Source: Phaeobacter sp. 22II1-1F12B (lineage in GTDB: Bacteria; Pseudomonadota; Alphaproteobacteria; Rhodobacterales; Rhodobacteraceae). From it: a stretch of 64,000 nucleotides of DNA. The notes below the pieces were generated by a model. The model made no database searches. It saw only the letters and a list, made by a program, of their open reading frames with translations, and was not told where the DNA came from. Positions 1-62,147 of this stretch are shown here, piece by piece. The first letter of the stretch is position 1; every line of letters starts with the position of its first letter. The translations under genes were made by a program, and so were the position numbers. The stretch covers positions 124,001-188,000 of the forward strand of contig NZ_AQQP01000012.1 in NCBI RefSeq assembly GCF_002210165.1, read 5' to 3'.

Positions 1-425
1 ATCAAACCCAGCCGGGTTTCGGTAAAGCCAAGCTTGGCGTGATCGACCGCGATGGCGACGTCACAGACGCTGATCAGGCCCAGCCCCCCGCCAAAGGCGT
101 TGCCCTGAACGGCGCCGATCACGGGTTGCGGCAGCGTGTTCATCGCAAAAAGCATATCTGCGAGCTTGCGCGCTTCGCGGTAGCGGGTTTCGCCATCTGC
201 CGCCATCTGCTCTTGCATCCATTTCAGGTCGCCGCCAGCGCAAAAGGTTTTACCCGCACCGGTGAGCACGACAACCCGGATCGCGGAATCGGCAGCGATG
301 GTTGCGGCGGCCTCGGTCAGCTCGGCGATCATCCGGGCTGACATCGCGTTGTGCTTTCCCGAGCGTTCCAGCGTCAGGTGCGCGACGCCGCGTTCATCCG
401 TCGTAAGCGCAATCTCTTCAAACAT
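1..425 (-). CDS. liuC: Enoyl-CoA hydratase/isomerase, probable methylglutaconyl-CoA hydratase (3' end outside window)
   Basis: Crotonase-fold enzyme, partial: the first 141 residues are in the window and the C-terminus lies beyond base 1. Reading from the ATG at 425 gives MFEEIALTTDERG, then the oxyanion-hole segment FCAGGDLKWM (about residues 62-71) and the second signature NAFGGGLGLISVCD (about 110-123), both typical of crotonases. The start overlaps the liuE stop by 8 bases, so the two are translationally coupled. As last gene of a liuA-B-D-E-C set, the likely reaction is hydration of 3-methylglutaconyl-CoA to HMG-CoA. Crotonases vary in substrate, so the specific activity is inferred from the operon. 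Confidence 0.85.
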   Translation of the reverse strand, partial: MFEEIALTTDERGVAHLTLERSGKHNAMSARMIAELTEAAATIAADSAIRVVVLTGAGKTFCAGGDLKWMQEQMAADGETRYREARKLADMLFAMNTLPQPVIGAVQGNAFGGGLGLISVCDVAIAVDHAKLGFTETRLGL

Positions 426-1287
426 GCGCTTCCTGCTCTCCGCGCATGGAGCGGGCCATCTGGGCCGCCTGGTTGATCACGTCCATATCGAGGCCGGTAT
501 CGTAGCCGAGCCTTTCAAGATGCGCCGCAACAGCCTCGGTCGCCACATTGCCCGCCGCGCCGGGTGCGTATGGGCAGCCGCCAAGCCCGCCAACGGCCGC
601 GTCGAAGACCCTCACGCCAAGGGACAGAGCGGCGTCGATATTCGCGAGCGCGCGCCCGGAAGTGTCGTGGAAATGCCCGGCCAGACGCCCGACCGGGATG
701 ACATCTCGCACTTTGAGCAGCATGCGGGCGATACTGTCGGGTGTGGCCTTACCCAACGTGTCGCCCAGCGAGATCTCGTAGCATCCCATTGCAAAGAGGC
801 GGTCCGCAACCGCGGCCACCTGCGATGGTGCGGTGGGACCGTCAAACGGGCAGTCCGTCACACAGGAAACATATCCACGAACCGGGAGGTCGATATGGCG
901 CGCGGCCTCGAGGATCGGCGCGAAGCGGTCGAGCGATTCCTCGATGCTGGCATTGATATTGGCGCGGCTGAAACCTTCACTGGCCGAGGCAAAGACAGCA
1001 ATTTCATCAGCCTTTGCAGCAAGCGCATCCTCGTAGCCACGCATGTTGGGCGTCAAAGCGGCATATCGCACGCCATTGGCACGCTTGATGCCCATGAGAA
1101 CCTCGCCACTGCCTGCCATCTGCGGCACCCACTTGGGGCTGACGAAACTGGCGCATTCGATGCGCTTGAAGCCAGCGTTGCTCAGGCAATCGACGAGTTC
1201 GATCTTTTCCGAGACCGGAATTTCGCGTTTTTCGTTCTGCAGACCGTCGCGCGGACCGACCTCAAAGATTTCAACATATCCCGTCAT
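418..1287 (-). CDS. liuE: Hydroxymethylglutaryl-CoA lyase
   Basis: Cleaves HMG-CoA to acetoacetate and acetyl-CoA, the last step of leucine catabolism. The 289-residue protein is a full-length TIM-barrel HMG-CoA lyase: GPRDGLQNE at residues 11-19, the metal-binding HFHDT at 205-209, and the active-site loop GGLGGCPYAPGAAGN with the catalytic cysteine at 238. It lies 63 bases downstream of liuD and overlaps liuC by 8 bases. The symbol mvaB is also used for this family. Confidence 0.95.
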   Translation of the reverse strand: MTGYVEIFEVGPRDGLQNEKREIPVSEKIELVDCLSNAGFKRIECASFVSPKWVPQMAGSGEVLMGIKRANGVRYAALTPNMRGYEDALAAKADEIAVFASASEGFSRANINASIEESLDRFAPILEAARHIDLPVRGYVSCVTDCPFDGPTAPSQVAAVADRLFAMGCYEISLGDTLGKATPDSIARMLLKVRDVIPVGRLAGHFHDTSGRALANIDAALSLGVRVFDAAVGGLGGCPYAPGAAGNVATEAVAAHLERLGYDTGLDMDVINQAAQMARSMRGEQEAHV

Positions 1288-1350: not shown

Positions 1351-3285
1351 TCATTCCAACGCTTCCAGCCGGACCAGCGCTGCACCGCTGTCGACCTGAT
1401 CGCCCGCCTTGGCAAGCACTTCTGCCACGACGCCATCGCGGGCGGCCAGCAGTGAATGCTCCATTTTCATCGCTTCCAGAACCGCCAGCCGATCTCCTTC
1501 GCTGACAGAGGCACCTGCCTCGGCGTAGATCGCCTTGACGAGTCCCGGCATCGGCGCTTCGATCAGATTTCCATCGCCGTGGCTGCCTGCCACGCGATCA
1601 AACGGATCGACTGCTTCGAAAGCGAACCCATACCCATCAAACACGGTTACCGTTGATCCGGCAATGGCGAAATCCGGTATCGCCCGGTCGTCCACCAGCC
1701 ACGTCCCCGAGATGCGTTCGGCAGTGACTGTGGTGCCATCCACATCCCAGTTTTGACGGTTCTGCCCTTCGACATCGACTTTCAGGGTCAGGATTTCTCC
1801 CTGCCATGAGAGCCGGACAGTTTGCGACAAAGGTGACCAGAGCGAAAAGCCCCTCTCCCAGTTCGAGTCGACCAGATTGGTTACAGCCATGGCTGCCACC
1901 ACCGCATGACGCGGATCCGGTTCAGGCGCGGAGACGAGTGCGTCGATGTCGCGACCGATCAAGCCGGTATCGACGTCGCCTTTGGCGAAACCTGCATGAC
2001 CCGCGAGGGCGCCCAGAAAGGCGAGGTTGGTGACGGTTCCGCCGACTCTCGTGTTCGCAAGGGCGCGGGAAAGGCGTTTCAGCGCGACAGCGCGGGTCGG
2101 TCCATGCACGATCACCTTGGCAATCATAGGATCGTACCAGGGGCTGATCACGTCCCCTGCCCGCACGCCGCTGTCGGCGCGGGCGTCGGCCGGAAATTCC
2201 AGATAGGTCAGTTCACCCGTAGCGGGCAGGAACCCCTTTGGGACGTCCTCGGCGTAAAGGCGGGCCTCGAAGGCGTGCCCGTTGATGGCCAGTTCATCCT
2301 GTTTTTTCGGAAGTTCCTCTCCGGCGGCAACCCTCAACTGCCATTCCACGAGATCGACGCCTGTAATCGCCTCTGTCACCGGGTGTTCGACCTGAAGCCG
2401 GGTATTCATCTCCATGAAATAAAATCTGTCGCTGCGCAGCCCCTCAGAGGCATCGACGATGAATTCCACCGTGCCTGCGCCTTTGTAGCCTATGGCTTCG
2501 GCGGCGCGCACGGCGGCATCCCCCATGGCAGAGCGCATTTCATCGGTCATGCCCGGTGCCGGGGCTTCCTCGATGACTTTCTGGTGGCGGCGCTGCAAGG
2601 AACAATCCCGTTCGAAAAGATGCACCGCCTTGCTGCCGTCACCAAAGACCTGAACTTCGATATGGCGGGGTTTGGATACAAATTTTTCGACCAGAACATC
2701 CGTGTTTCCAAAAGCGGTGCGGGCCTCACCACGGGCGCTTTCCAGCGCGGCGACAAAATCGCCGGGCTTTTCAACCTGGCGCATGCCTTTGCCACCACCG
2801 CCGGCGACCGCCTTGATCAGAACCGGATAGCCGATTTCATAGGCGCGTTCCGACAGGAAGGTGTCATCCTGATCGCTGCCGTGATAGCCGGGCACGACCG
2901 GGACACCGGCCTTTTCCATCAACGCTTTTGCCGCGTCCTTGAGACCCATCGCCCGGATCGCTTTCGCCGACGGACCGATAAAGACGAGACCGGCGGCCTC
3001 TACCGCTTCGACGAAATCGGGGTTCTCGGAGAGAAACCCATAGCCCGGATGGATCGCCTGCGCGCCGGTTTCAAGGGCGGCGCGAATAATCACATCGGAT
3101 TTGAGATAGCTCTCGGACGGAGCTGCGCCGCCGATATGGACCGCGTGATCGGCCATCTGGACATGGCGGGATCCGGCATCCGCGTCAGAATAGACCGCCA
3201 CGCATCTGACACCCATGCTACGTGCGGTCTCTATGACCCGGCAGGCGATTTCGCCGCGATTGGCAATCAGAATCGTGTCAAACAT
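1351..3285 (-). CDS. liuD: Methylcrotonyl-CoA carboxylase, biotin-containing alpha subunit
   Basis: ATP-dependent biotin carboxylase plus biotin carrier subunit of 3-methylcrotonyl-CoA carboxylase (644 residues). Domains in order: biotin carboxylase N-domain (IANRGEIACRVI at the start), ATP-grasp with the glycine-rich loop AVAGGGGKGMRQV, the EMNTRLQVEHPVTE active-site region, BC C-domain, a linker, and a C-terminal biotinyl domain with EAMKMEH whose Lys607 should carry biotin. Pairing with the carboxyltransferase subunit upstream and HMG-CoA lyase downstream favours methylcrotonyl-CoA over propionyl-CoA as substrate. Confidence 0.93.
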   Translation of the reverse strand: MFDTILIANRGEIACRVIETARSMGVRCVAVYSDADAGSRHVQMADHAVHIGGAAPSESYLKSDVIIRAALETGAQAIHPGYGFLSENPDFVEAVEAAGLVFIGPSAKAIRAMGLKDAAKALMEKAGVPVVPGYHGSDQDDTFLSERAYEIGYPVLIKAVAGGGGKGMRQVEKPGDFVAALESARGEARTAFGNTDVLVEKFVSKPRHIEVQVFGDGSKAVHLFERDCSLQRRHQKVIEEAPAPGMTDEMRSAMGDAAVRAAEAIGYKGAGTVEFIVDASEGLRSDRFYFMEMNTRLQVEHPVTEAITGVDLVEWQLRVAAGEELPKKQDELAINGHAFEARLYAEDVPKGFLPATGELTYLEFPADARADSGVRAGDVISPWYDPMIAKVIVHGPTRAVALKRLSRALANTRVGGTVTNLAFLGALAGHAGFAKGDVDTGLIGRDIDALVSAPEPDPRHAVVAAMAVTNLVDSNWERGFSLWSPLSQTVRLSWQGEILTLKVDVEGQNRQNWDVDGTTVTAERISGTWLVDDRAIPDFAIAGSTVTVFDGYGFAFEAVDPFDRVAGSHGDGNLIEAPMPGLVKAIYAEAGASVSEGDRLAVLEAMKMEHSLLAARDGVVAEVLAKAGDQVDSGAALVRLEALE

Positions 3286-3385: not shown

Positions 3386-4990
3386 CTACATGCGGAAGAC
3401 GCCGAAACGCGTCTCTTCGATCGGGGCGTTGAGCGTGGCCGACAAAGAAAGCGCAAGGACGTCGCGGGTCTTGCGTGGATCGATGATGCCATCATCCCAG
3501 AGGCGTGCGCTGGCATAAAGCGGATGCGATTGGCGGGCAAACATCTCGAGCGTGGGGCGCTTGAATTCCGCCTCTTCCGCTTCGGACCATGTCCCACCCG
3601 AGCGTTCGATGGAATCGCGTCTGACAGTTGCGAGGACACCGGCGGCCTGTTCGCCGCCCATGACAGAGATGCGCGAGTTCGGCCAGGTCCAGAGGAAGCG
3701 CGGGTCATAGGCGCGACCACACATGCCATAATTTCCGGCACCGTAGGAGCCTCCGACAAGCATGGTAATCTTGGGGACTTTTGTCGTTGCAACGGCGGTC
3801 ACGAGCTTGGCGCCGTGACGGGCGATGCCTTCGGCCTCGTATTTGCGTCCGACCATGAAGCCGGTAATGTTCTGCAGGAAGATCAGCGGGATGCCGCGCT
3901 GGCTGCAAAGTTCGACGAAATGCGCGCCCTTGGCAGCGCTTTCCGAGAATAGGACACCGTTATTGGCGATGATGCCGATCGGGCAGCCACGGAGGTGAGC
4001 GAAGCCGCAGACGAGGGTTTCTCCGAAGCGGGATTTGAATTCGTCGAAGCGGGAGCCATCGACGGTCCGGGCGATCACTTCGCGGATGTCGTAGGGCGTG
4101 CGCAGATCCTTTGGGACCACGCCCAGAATTTCGTCGGGATCATAGGCAGGCTCTTCGGATGTTTGCCAGGCGACGTTGCTGATCTCTTTGCGGTTCAGGC
4201 CGCCAACCGCACGTCGGGCCAGTGCAAGAGCGTGGGTATCATCTTCGGCGAGATAGTCCGCAACGCCGGAGAGGCGCGTATGGATATCGCCGCCGCCGAG
4301 GTCTTCGGCGGTGACGACCTCGCCGATGGCTGCCTTGACCAGCGGGGGACCGGCAAGAAAGATCGTGCCCTGTTCCTTGACGATGATCGTGACATCGGAC
4401 ATGGCCGGGACATAGGCCCCGCCCGCCGTGCAGGAGCCCATTACGACGGCAATCTGCGGAATGCCCTTTGCGCTCATGTTCGCCTGGTTGAAAAAAATCC
4501 GTCCGAAATGCTCTCGGTCGGGAAACACTTCGTCCTGGTTCGGCAGGTTGGCCCCGCCGGAGTCGACAAGATAGACACAAGGCAGGCAATTGGTTTCAGC
4601 AATTTCCTGCGCCCGCAGGTGTTTCTTGACGGACATCGGGTAATAAGTGCCGCCCTTAACCGTCGCGTCGTTGCAGACAACCATGACATCGCGACCATGA
4701 ATACGCCCGATGCCGGCAATCAGGCCTGCCGCCGGTGCCGCATCGTCATACATGCCATGGGCCGCCGTTGCCCCGATTTCCAGAAAGGGAGACCCGGGAT
4801 CGAGGAGGTTTGCAACCCTTTCGCGCGGCGGCATTTTACCCCTGCTGACATGGCGCTCGCGCGCCTTTTCGCCGCCGCCTTCGGCCGCTTTGGCGGCAGC
4901 TTCGCGGATCTCGGCCAGCGCATCCAGATGGGCCGCGACATTGGCCTTGAAATCATCGGAGGCAGGAAGGGCTTTCGATTGCAGTTTCAT
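3386..4990 (-). CDS. liuB: Methylcrotonyl-CoA carboxylase, carboxyltransferase beta subunit
   Basis: Transfers the carboxyl group from biotin to 3-methylcrotonyl-CoA. The 534-residue protein has the two crotonase-like carboxyltransferase halves. The N-terminal half begins around [21 protein letters not shown]; the C-terminal half contains the oxyanion-type glycine stretch [18 protein letters not shown] and ends with [15 protein letters not shown], a common ending for MCC and PCC beta chains. The length matches bacterial MCC beta. It sits between liuA (80 bases upstream) and liuD (100 bases downstream) on the same strand. Confidence 0.94.
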
Positions 4991-5070: not shown

Positions 5071-6234
5071 TCAGGCCATCGCCGACATGAGTTCCCGGCC
5101 AACCAGCATCCGGCGGATTTCCGACGTGCCAGCCCCGATTTCCATGAGCTTGGCATCCCGGAAAATACGGGCGACCGGCGCATCATTGAGGAACCCTGCG
5201 CCGCCAAGGGCCTGAACTGCCTGATGGGCCTGTTTCATTGCCTCCTCGGAAGCGTATAGACAGCAGGCTGCTGCATCCTGACGGGTGACGTCGCCGCGGT
5301 CACAGGCCTTGGCGACCTCGTAAACATAGGCGCGGGCGGAGTTCATCGCGGTATACATATCCGCGATCTTACCCTGCATCAGCTGGAAGTTCCCGATCGG
5401 CTGACCGAATTGCTTGCGTTCGGCCATATACGGCATGATCTCATCCATGCAGGCGGCCATGATACCGGTTCCGATCCCGGCAAGGACGACGCGTTCGTAG
5501 TCGAGACCGGACATCAGGACCTTGACGCCCTTGCCCTCTTCTCCGAGCACGTTTTCAAACGGAACTTCGCAGTCGTCGAAAATCAGCTCGGCCGTGTTCG
5601 ACCCGCGCATGCCCAGCTTGTCGAAATGCGGCGAGGTCGAGAATCCCTTGAAGCTTTTTTCCACGAGGAACGCGGTAATGCCCTTGGACCCCGCCTCTGG
5701 ATCCGTCTTGGCATAAACGACCAGCGTATCTGCGTCGGGGCCGTTGGTGATCCAGTACTTGTTACCGTTCAGCCGGTAGTGATCGTTGCGCTTTTCGGCG
5801 TGGAGCTTCATCGAAACAACGTCCGATCCGGCGCCTGCCTCGCTCATCGCGAGCGCGCCGACATGTTCGCCGGACACCAGTTTCGGCAGGTATTTCTCTT
5901 TCTGCTCCTGCGATCCGTTCAGCTTGATCTGATTGACGCAGAGGTTCGAATGGGCGCCGTAGGACAGTGAGACCGACGCGCTGGCCCGTGCGACCTCTTC
6001 CACGGCGACCGTATGGGCAAGGTAGGACATGCCCGCGCCGCCGAATTCCTCGGGCACCGTAACCCCCAGCATGCCGAGTTCGCCCATCTCGCGCCAGAGT
6101 TCGGCAGGGAAATTGTTCGACCGGTCGATTTCGGCGGCCATCGGCTTGACGCGGTCCTGCGCCCAGCGGTGAACCATTTCGCGTAGCGCGTTCACGTCCT
6201 CGCCAAGATCGAATTGCATAGCTGCTGTGAACAT
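5071..6234 (-). CDS. liuA: Isovaleryl-CoA dehydrogenase
   Basis: FAD-dependent acyl-CoA dehydrogenase converting isovaleryl-CoA to 3-methylcrotonyl-CoA. I place the start at the ATG at 6234 ([13 protein letters not shown], 387 residues): GGGAGG lies a few bases upstream, whereas the longer GTG start at 6261 would fall inside the palindromic operator. [10 protein letters not shown] near residues 244-253 carries the glutamate that is the base in isovaleryl-CoA dehydrogenases (in other acyl-CoA dehydrogenases the base is near the C-terminus). [13 protein letters not shown] and QALGGAGFL are general family motifs. It is the first gene of the liu operon. Confidence 0.93.
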
Positions 6235-6254: not shown

Positions 6255-6268
6255 TGAACACTTGTTCA
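6255..6268. promoter_or_regulatory. Palindromic operator upstream of liuA (TetR-type)
   Basis: TGAACA-CT-TGTTCA is a perfect inverted repeat with a 2-base centre, 20 bases upstream of the chosen liuA ATG, where a repressor would block transcription of the leucine operon. The same half-sites with a TT centre occur just upstream of the TetR gene at 62041. The two 14-mers differ at one base. The palindrome is seen directly; the regulator is inferred. Confidence 0.75.
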
Positions 6269-6364
6269 TATCCTACGCTCCCGGTTTGCGCCGGTCAAGC
6301 AGAAGGAACAAGAGCGCCTATCGCGACGTTGTCAGGAAAGATCGAAAGCTGAAAGGAATGAATC

Positions 6365-61451: not shown

Positions 61452-62041
61452 CAGGCGTGGCCCATGGCCTGCCGGACCATGTTCCAGTAGATCGTTTCGA
61501 CCTCTTCCAGCGAGAGGCGCCCGCTGTCGCGATACCATGTATTGATGCCGTTCAGCATGGCGATCACCGCCAGCGTAGCGATCTTGGTATCGGGTATACT
61601 GAAAATCTCCGCCTCGACGCCCGTCCGAAGGATGGCTTCAAGCTCCATCTCGTAGGTGCGGCGCAGATCCTCGATGGCGGCAAAGTTCTCATCCGTCAGG
61701 TTGCGCAGTTCCATATAGGCGATGAAAACCGCCTCGGGCCGGGCAAGGTGGAACCGGATGTGGAAACGCACGAAATCCTCAAGCCGGGCGAGCGTATCAT
61801 CCGGTTTCTTCCGCGCGGTGCGGGTTTCGAGAAGCTCGCGCAGGTGCTCTTCCATCAGCGAAAACAGAAGCGTCTGCTTGTCGGGGATGTAGTTATAGAG
61901 CGCCCCCGCCTGCACGCCCACCTCGCCTGCGATCTGGCGCATGGACACGGCGGCAAACCCGTGTCGGGCAAAAAGGCTAAGCGCCGTCTTGCGGATACGG
62001 GGGCCGGTTATGTCGGAATGTGATCCCTGCGTGCGTGCCAT
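61451..62041 (-). CDS. TetR/AcrR family regulator, candidate repressor of the liu operon
   Basis: 196 residues from the ATG at 62041 (MARTQGSHSDITGP). The N-terminal TetR helix-turn-helix is AAVSMRQIAGEVGVQAGALYNYIPDKQTLL, in the expected region at about residues 31-60. The C-terminal ligand domain has FHIRFHLARPEAVFIAYMELRNLT, a pattern frequent in acyl-CoA-related regulators. A palindrome identical in half-sites to the one before liuA lies 14 bases upstream, implying autoregulation and control of leucine catabolism. The ligand (perhaps an acyl-CoA of the pathway) is not visible. Confidence 0.82.
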   Translation of the reverse strand: MARTQGSHSDITGPRIRKTALSLFARHGFAAVSMRQIAGEVGVQAGALYNYIPDKQTLLFSLMEEHLRELLETRTARKKPDDTLARLEDFVRFHIRFHLARPEAVFIAYMELRNLTDENFAAIEDLRRTYEMELEAILRTGVEAEIFSIPDTKIATLAVIAMLNGINTWYRDSGRLSLEEVETIYWNMVRQAMGHA

Positions 62042-62055
62042 GGCGTGACGATAAC

Positions 62056-62069
62056 TGAACATTTGTTCA
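62056..62069. promoter_or_regulatory. Palindromic operator upstream of the TetR gene
   Basis: TGAACA-TT-TGTTCA, a perfect inverted repeat extended by C/G on each side, 14 bases before the TetR start codon. The same half-sites, with a CT centre, lie at 6255-6268 before liuA. It may also affect the divergent lipoprotein gene at 62148. Confidence 0.78.
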
Positions 62070-62147
62070 GAAAGAAGCCTCGCTTGCCTATTGCCGTAGA
62101 AAGGTTCAGAAAACGGATGGTCACCAGTGAATATCAGGGCATGTCAC

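Follow-up and report, generated by a model that had tools for sequence, protein, structure and literature searches.

The DNA analysed here, a 64 kb stretch of the Phaeobacter sp. 22II1-1F12B genome (referred to as the window), carries two nearly identical palindromes, one before a gene for a TetR-family protein and the other before the leucine catabolic (liu) operon, and raises the question of whether this protein represses both its own gene and the operon. Two regulators of branched-chain amino acid utilization are described in excerpts of one published study: LiuR, a MerR-family protein that controls these genes and was reported for 103 genomes and 15 taxa, and LiuQ, a TetR-family protein described as unique to betaproteobacteria (PMC5343134). 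As far as those excerpts go, LiuR and the window protein would have branched-chain amino acid genes as a common target, whereas the former is a MerR and the latter a TetR protein. A sequence-only reading of the window had predicted that this TetR represses tetR and the liu genes and is a regulator different from LiuR. The features concerned are listed in Table 1.

Table 1. Candidate regulatory sites and genes of the tetR and liu loci in the window.
Feature	Coordinates	Strand	Basis and remarks
tetR-family repressor gene, 196 aa	61451..62041	-	TetR_N and TetR_C_24 domains
Putative tetR promoter	62048..62075	-	weak -35-like 62070-62075; -10-like TATCGT 62048-62053; O1 fills the spacer
Candidate operator O1	62056..62069	.	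reads TGAACATTTGTTCA; before tetR, 14 nt to ATG 62041
Candidate operator O2	6255..6268	.	reads TGAACACTTGTTCA; before liuA, 20 nt to ATG 6234
liuA promoter-like site, TTGACC-17-TAGGAT	6270..6298	-	consensus match only; 1 found vs 0.1 expected in shuffles
liuA, isovaleryl-CoA dehydrogenase	5071..6234	-	Pfam acyl-CoA dehydrogenase domains; name from operon context
liuB, 3-methylcrotonyl-CoA carboxylase beta (carboxyltransferase) subunit	3386..4990	-	domains and operon context
liuD, 3-methylcrotonyl-CoA carboxylase alpha (biotin carboxylase and carrier) subunit	1351..3285	-	domains and operon context
liuE, hydroxymethylglutaryl-CoA (HMG-CoA) lyase	418..1287	-	NF004283, 452.5 bits, cut-off 246
liuC, enoyl-CoA hydratase-like, partial at window edge	1..419	-	open frame only; named by eye

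O1 and O2 are both 14-bp palindromes that are one centre base apart, reading TGAACAAATGTTCA before tetR and TGAACAAGTGTTCA before liuA on the gene strand. The window sequence bears out what had been claimed of them, namely identical half-sites with one differing centre base and a location 14-20 bases upstream of start codons (14 nt for tetR and 20 nt for liuA). Longer open reading frames obtained mechanically start at 62062 (tetR) and 6261 (liuA), within the O1 and O2 palindromes; both starts are unlikely, and that of tetR was put at MARTQ by conservation rather than at 62062. In the 5.53 Mb genome, a perfect TGAACANNTGTTCA occurs in exactly two places, O1 and O2, compared with 0 places for a reversed-pattern control and with 0.12 occurrences expected under a base-composition model; the genome scan, which had been set as a refutation test, thus yielded no copies beyond these two. 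When one mismatch is allowed, TGAACANNTGTTCA is found in 13 genome places versus 3 for the control. The consensus derived from the family, TGAACRNNYGTTCA, is present exactly in 3 genome places versus 1 for the control, the third being C24:39314, where no ORF start was found close downstream. With one mismatch, this consensus matches 41 places versus 25 in the control, so the single-mismatch sites in Phaeobacter sp. 22II1-1F12B are mostly background.

The liu genes follow one another on the minus strand in the order liuA, beta subunit, alpha subunit, HMG-CoA lyase, and partial enoyl-CoA hydratase, and their names, except that of the HMG-CoA lyase, were taken from domains and operon context. One base separates the liuA promoter-like site from O2, and transcription would therefore start inside O2. 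With regard to the regulator, the protein contains the N-terminal helix-turn-helix of the family (PF00440 TetR_N, 45.4 bits, cut-off 24) and a C-terminal ligand-binding-type domain (PF17932 TetR_C_24, 102.2 bits, cut-off 26.4), with no MerR domain reported by Pfam. No NCBIfam model scored above its cut-off, and neither the Pfam nor the NCBIfam library yielded a specific name for the gene. At 1e-20, a single match to this TetR is found in the window's genome.

The consensus promoter scan reported no site at tetR in the window. In the family profile (78 genomes), a TTGATC-like word precedes the tetR site and TAnnnT comes after it, and the operator would occupy the spacer of the tetR promoter. 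The site starts 28 bases before the ATG in 43 of these genomes and 29 bases before it in 15 more, and the distance lies between 26 and 32 bases in 73/78 site-bearing genomes. A Shine-Dalgarno-like word was seen before tetR in 10/78 genomes versus 70/78 for liuA, and positions 62041-62055 of the window contain no clear Shine-Dalgarno word before tetR. Since such words are rare and the distance between operator and ATG is nearly fixed across the family, the tetR transcript is possibly leaderless. The positions of O1 and O2 over promoter and start fit repression by blocking of RNA polymerase.

To what extent these sites are kept in relatives was assessed in 120 genomes of the family Rhodobacteraceae (membership judged from named matches), in which TetR was found in 83 at 1e-20 and isovaleryl-CoA dehydrogenase in 99 at 1e-150, and the 250 bases upstream of each tetR and liuA match were read for the operator. 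The comparison of the two regions in relatives was also part of the refutation test, and the palindrome proved to be kept: TGAACRNNYGTTCA with at most one mismatch is present before tetR in 78/82 genomes and before liuA in 78/97. With at most two mismatches to TGAACANNTGTTCA, sites occur at 78/86 tetR loci and 82/101 liuA loci (a few duplicates are included) versus 0.3 and 0.8 in single-base shuffles. Four genomes (G114, G062, G024, and G018) have no site within one mismatch before tetR. Among named contigs, which include Ruegeria, Phaeobacter, Leisingera, and Roseovarius, 79/80 tetR loci carry a site with at most one mismatch (best 80 of at least 587 relatives); the nearest named relative in this set, Heliomarina baculiformis, has a TetR that is 94% identical and the site TGAACGAATGTTCA. 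The same-genus genome G001 contains no perfect TGAACANNTGTTCA, and a G variant like TGAACGAATGTTCA may explain this. The variable bases of the tetR and liuA operators show no co-variation (72 genomes, Spearman 0.08, p 0.51).

The presence of tetR and of the liuA operator could be compared in 97 genomes with a readable liuA upstream region, of which 75 have both, 4 have tetR without the site, 3 have the site without tetR, and 15 have neither. The liuA site is thus found in 75/79 genomes with tetR versus 3/18 genomes without it (Fisher p 1.8e-11, shared ancestry ignored). In three of the four genomes with tetR and no liuA site (G126, G018, and G132), tetR immediately precedes liuA in the same orientation, with 29, 81, and 29 bases between the matched stretches, and the best site before tetR has 1, 2, and 0 mismatches, respectively. 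The sole unexplained genome of this class is G107, with a site at tetR and none at liuA. In the three genomes with the liuA site and no tetR match at 1e-20 (G021, G120, and G094), the absent tetR possibly reflects gaps. No common replacement operator was seen by eye before liuA in the tetR-less genomes. In a tree of the 97 dehydrogenases, 10/94 inner branches are firm, and on the best tree tetR changes 15 times and the site 9 times; a paired sign test on this single-gene tree has 4 firm pairs, too few to reach significance. Because of common ancestry, the co-occurrences of tetR and operator across genomes do not count as independent events.

In other families of the class, a tetR homologue adjoins liuA (within about 1.5 kb) at 6/13 and 10/14 loci in two sets, and adjacency goes with identity, being found for 16/19 homologues at 41-47% and for 0/8 at 30-34%. 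A site within two mismatches precedes tetR at all 11 adjacent loci where tetR and liuA are on the same strand; it is exact in L414, L416, and L417 and reads TGAACGTTCGTTTT in L439-L446. Five homologues divergent from liuA (L415, L418, L419, L447, and L449) gave no TGAACRNNYGTTCA-type (TGAACR) site, and the promoter shared by such divergent alphaproteobacterial tetR/liuA pairs is expected to carry another operator. The simplest reading is an old functional link between tetR and liuA that was later separated in most Rhodobacteraceae. A profile of the window TetR group at 1e-25 detected 30/299 genomes of the phylum, all from the same class, the class mix of the 299 being unstated.

At loci from other classes, a MerR gene, presumed to be LiuR, is located directly upstream of liuA in 4/14 (L459, L460, L465, and L467), and two more such loci with a MerR gene upstream of liuA were noted by eye. 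LiuR-like MerR proteins are also present in 110/120 family genomes at 1e-15. Among the 91 matches listed, nearly one per genome, none is seen within 20 kb of liuA: 17 are on the liuA contig, the nearest at 114 kb, and 74 are on other contigs, at no defined distance. On these grounds, MerR LiuR was set aside as the liu regulator in the family, and action of a LiuR-like MerR on liuA from a distance is possible. The earlier claim of a regulator other than LiuR is supported by the MerR-liuA distances listed and falls short of proof. In the window's genome, tandem LiuR-like MerR genes were seen by eye before FadE-type acyl-CoA dehydrogenases (L510:4198-5179, contig 2), which suggests that LiuR relatives in the family serve fatty-acid genes.

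Two other-class genomes (L462 and L470) have a TetR gene divergent from liuA; both proteins are presumed to be LiuQ, and their class is likewise presumed. The former is 25% identical to the window TetR over 173 residues, and the latter gave no BLASTP match to it. Profile comparison indicates the common TetR fold. Orthology to LiuQ gains no support from the 25% identity of one presumed LiuQ (L462) but may nonetheless exist, and no clear operator was found among the inverted repeats of L462 and L470. Like LiuQ, the window TetR would control genes of branched-chain amino acid catabolism, judged from the operator sequences ahead of liuA and of valine-type and isoleucine-type genes.

Beyond liuA, two recurring genes were traced in relatives, each chosen on account of one copy with the site. 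A short-chain dehydrogenase (SDR) gene has a match in 30/61 genomes, 19 of which carry the exact consensus site, while the three tetR-less ones among the 30 have none; the gene is read as the isoleucine-pathway 3-hydroxy-2-methylbutyryl-CoA type, a name given by context with no curated equivalog. A valine-type acyl-CoA dehydrogenase has a match in 49/61 genomes, and a site with at most one mismatch precedes 27 of the best 30. By eye, its operon consists of the acyl-CoA dehydrogenase, then a hydratase/hydrolase-like gene, and then a 3-hydroxyisobutyrate dehydrogenase-like gene; this operon, too, is named by context with no curated equivalog. In single relatives, the site was found before HMG-CoA lyase, 3-oxoacid CoA-transferase subunit A, and a carboxyltransferase, and several acyl-CoA synthetases carry it as well (L242, L243, and L040, assigned by protein-family scan, and, assigned by eye, L228 and L029). 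In Phaeobacter sp. 22II1-1F12B itself, the SDR gene and the valine-type operon (L277 and L313; contig 33) are without the site; its regulon therefore appears to consist of tetR and liu only, an apparent shrinkage compared with many relatives. The leucine-operon regulon expected earlier would hold for the window's genome and be too narrow for many relatives.

In three further loci (L245, L261, and L025, site near 1501-1554), TGAACRNNYGTTCA is located in a promoter shared by a second TetR and a divergent flavin monooxygenase-like gene. This second TetR has a different C-terminal domain (PF17939 in L245, which was scanned; L261 and L025 look alike by eye), and its site is possibly a case of cross-talk or of a convergent operator.

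The AlphaFold model of the window TetR (pLDDT 94.0, pTM 0.87) is all-helical, and its closest folds are 3him (Z 22.3), AibR with isovaleryl-CoA (22.1), 3ccy (21.1), KstR2 (20.9), and BkaR (20.1), Z scores within 1 being counted as tied. Other TetR folds score high too, such as QacR (Z 17.9), and the inference of a ligand is therefore soft. Among solved structures, PfmR (3vpr) is the best sequence match, with Bacillus-type FadR further down; PfmR and Bacillus FadR have fatty-acid or phenylacetate regulons. The NCBIfam FadR equivalog NF053878 gave 55.5 bits against the window TetR, far below its cut-off of 200. According to excerpts of published work, AibR of Myxococcus xanthus belongs to alternative isovaleryl-CoA biosynthesis and downregulates its operon when isovaleryl-CoA-bound (PMC9131029). 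It is similar to the window TetR in fold, is the fourth PDB match of the profile, and is 23% identical; on this partial account, AibR serves biosynthesis, whereas the window TetR is linked to catabolic genes. BkaR (Rv2506/MSMEG_4718) of mycobacteria is described, again in excerpts, as a TetR protein that represses its own gene and branched-chain keto-acid genes, acts mainly on an adjacent divergent operon, and also has a site at M. tuberculosis scoA (PMC3920632). It is 22% identical to the window TetR over the aligned fold, and its operator core, given there as GTTA(N)T(N4)A(N)TAAC (PMC3920632), is unlike TGAACRNNYGTTCA. Fold and pathway together point to a short branched acyl-CoA as the likely ligand, and isovaleryl-CoA is slightly favoured as the main inducer. 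The window TetR would work like BkaR and LiuQ and represent a known kind of TetR repressor.

Very probably, the window TetR represses branched-chain amino acid catabolism as well as its own gene and is released, probably by a CoA thioester of the pathway. At the level of sequence, conservation, the tracking of tetR and liuA site, and adjacency to liuA elsewhere support the predicted repression of tetR and liu. DNA contact, repression, and ligand are what we infer for this protein, as follows: a TetR dimer would bind TGAACRNNYGTTCA, sit in its own promoter and where transcription from the liuA promoter starts, and block tetR and liu transcription. A pathway CoA thioester, first of all isovaleryl-CoA, or else a relative of it with a short branched acyl group, would probably bind the C-terminal domain and release the dimer. 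The same operator would, in many relatives, extend control to valine and isoleucine-type catabolic genes.

The regulator and operator might be as stated and the true signal a general fatty acyl-CoA, as in FadR- or PfmR-like proteins, with leucine catabolism as one branch of a fatty-acid regulon. The nearest solved sequences do include PfmR and Bacillus-type FadR, and a few relatives have the site at acyl-CoA synthetases whose substrate is uncertain; however, the targets that recur belong to leucine, valine, and isoleucine-type catabolism, and it is tandem MerR genes that precede the FadE-type dehydrogenases in the window's genome by eye, which leaves this signal rather unlikely. The protein could also be active with its ligand as a co-repressor, like AibR, a close fold neighbour that, in the excerpts available, downregulates when bound to isovaleryl-CoA (PMC9131029), or be an activator. 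End-product co-repression suits the biosynthetic route of AibR, whereas a catabolic operon calls for induction, and an operator over promoter and start fits repression, so that co-repression or activation is improbable here.

Another DNA-binding protein might recognise both palindromes and the link to tetR be indirect, and the same motif before the second TetR (L245; L261 and L025 by eye) would agree with this. Such a protein is nonetheless very improbable in view of the near-fixed spacing of the own-gene site, the lack of the liuA site in 15/18 genomes without this tetR, the adjacency of this tetR to liuA elsewhere, and the single TetR match in the window's genome at 1e-20. As for mere chance resemblance, the window alone holds 3 matches with two mismatches versus 1.65 expected, which is unremarkable and not significantly above chance, and two matches with one mismatch to TGAACRNNYGTTCA are reached in 9/100 shuffles; yet a single perfect TGAACANNTGTTCA is expected just 0.0013 times in 64 kb, and the window has a pair. 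Chance resemblance, which retains next to no probability, is ruled out by the conservation before tetR (78/82) and liuA (78/97).

A switch of this type is ordinary; the window TetR would be a candidate repressor for branched-chain amino acid breakdown in roseobacter-type marine bacteria. Roseobacters are abundant marine heterotrophs. It seems reasonably probable that this TetR is a third, non-orthologous regulator beside LiuR and LiuQ, which arose next to liuA in Alphaproteobacteria and moved away in Rhodobacteraceae. Its operator would have been retained at, or have spread to, genes for leucine, valine, and isoleucine, so that much of the family has a regulon that senses acyl-CoA and includes a leaderless, autoregulated tetR; some lineages, including that of the window, would have shrunk it to leucine, and others would have lost the regulator and the liuA operator together. 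One conserved pathway would thereby provide a further example of non-orthologous replacement of a regulator. Compared with the earlier idea, the family-wide conservation, the joint absence of regulator and operator, the liuA adjacency outside the family, and the leucine-valine-isoleucine regulon in relatives are additions. No published description of this TetR was found by title or abstract among open-licence papers, and an earlier prediction in curated regulon databases is possible. In excerpts of one paper, the isovaleryl-CoA dehydrogenase of R. sphaeroides appears among the genes that change when another regulator is mutated; this TetR is unnamed there (PMC4344238). With a predicted regulator, a defined 14-bp operator, and a list of targets, the control of branched-chain amino acid use in roseobacters becomes directly testable, and the 15 tetR-less genomes without the liuA operator are natural controls.

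A minor observation concerns three loci (L017, L027, and L250) in which the palindrome lies inside a transporter-like coding sequence whose protein sequence is similar in the three genomes; these intragenic sites are probably due to chance or coding constraint.
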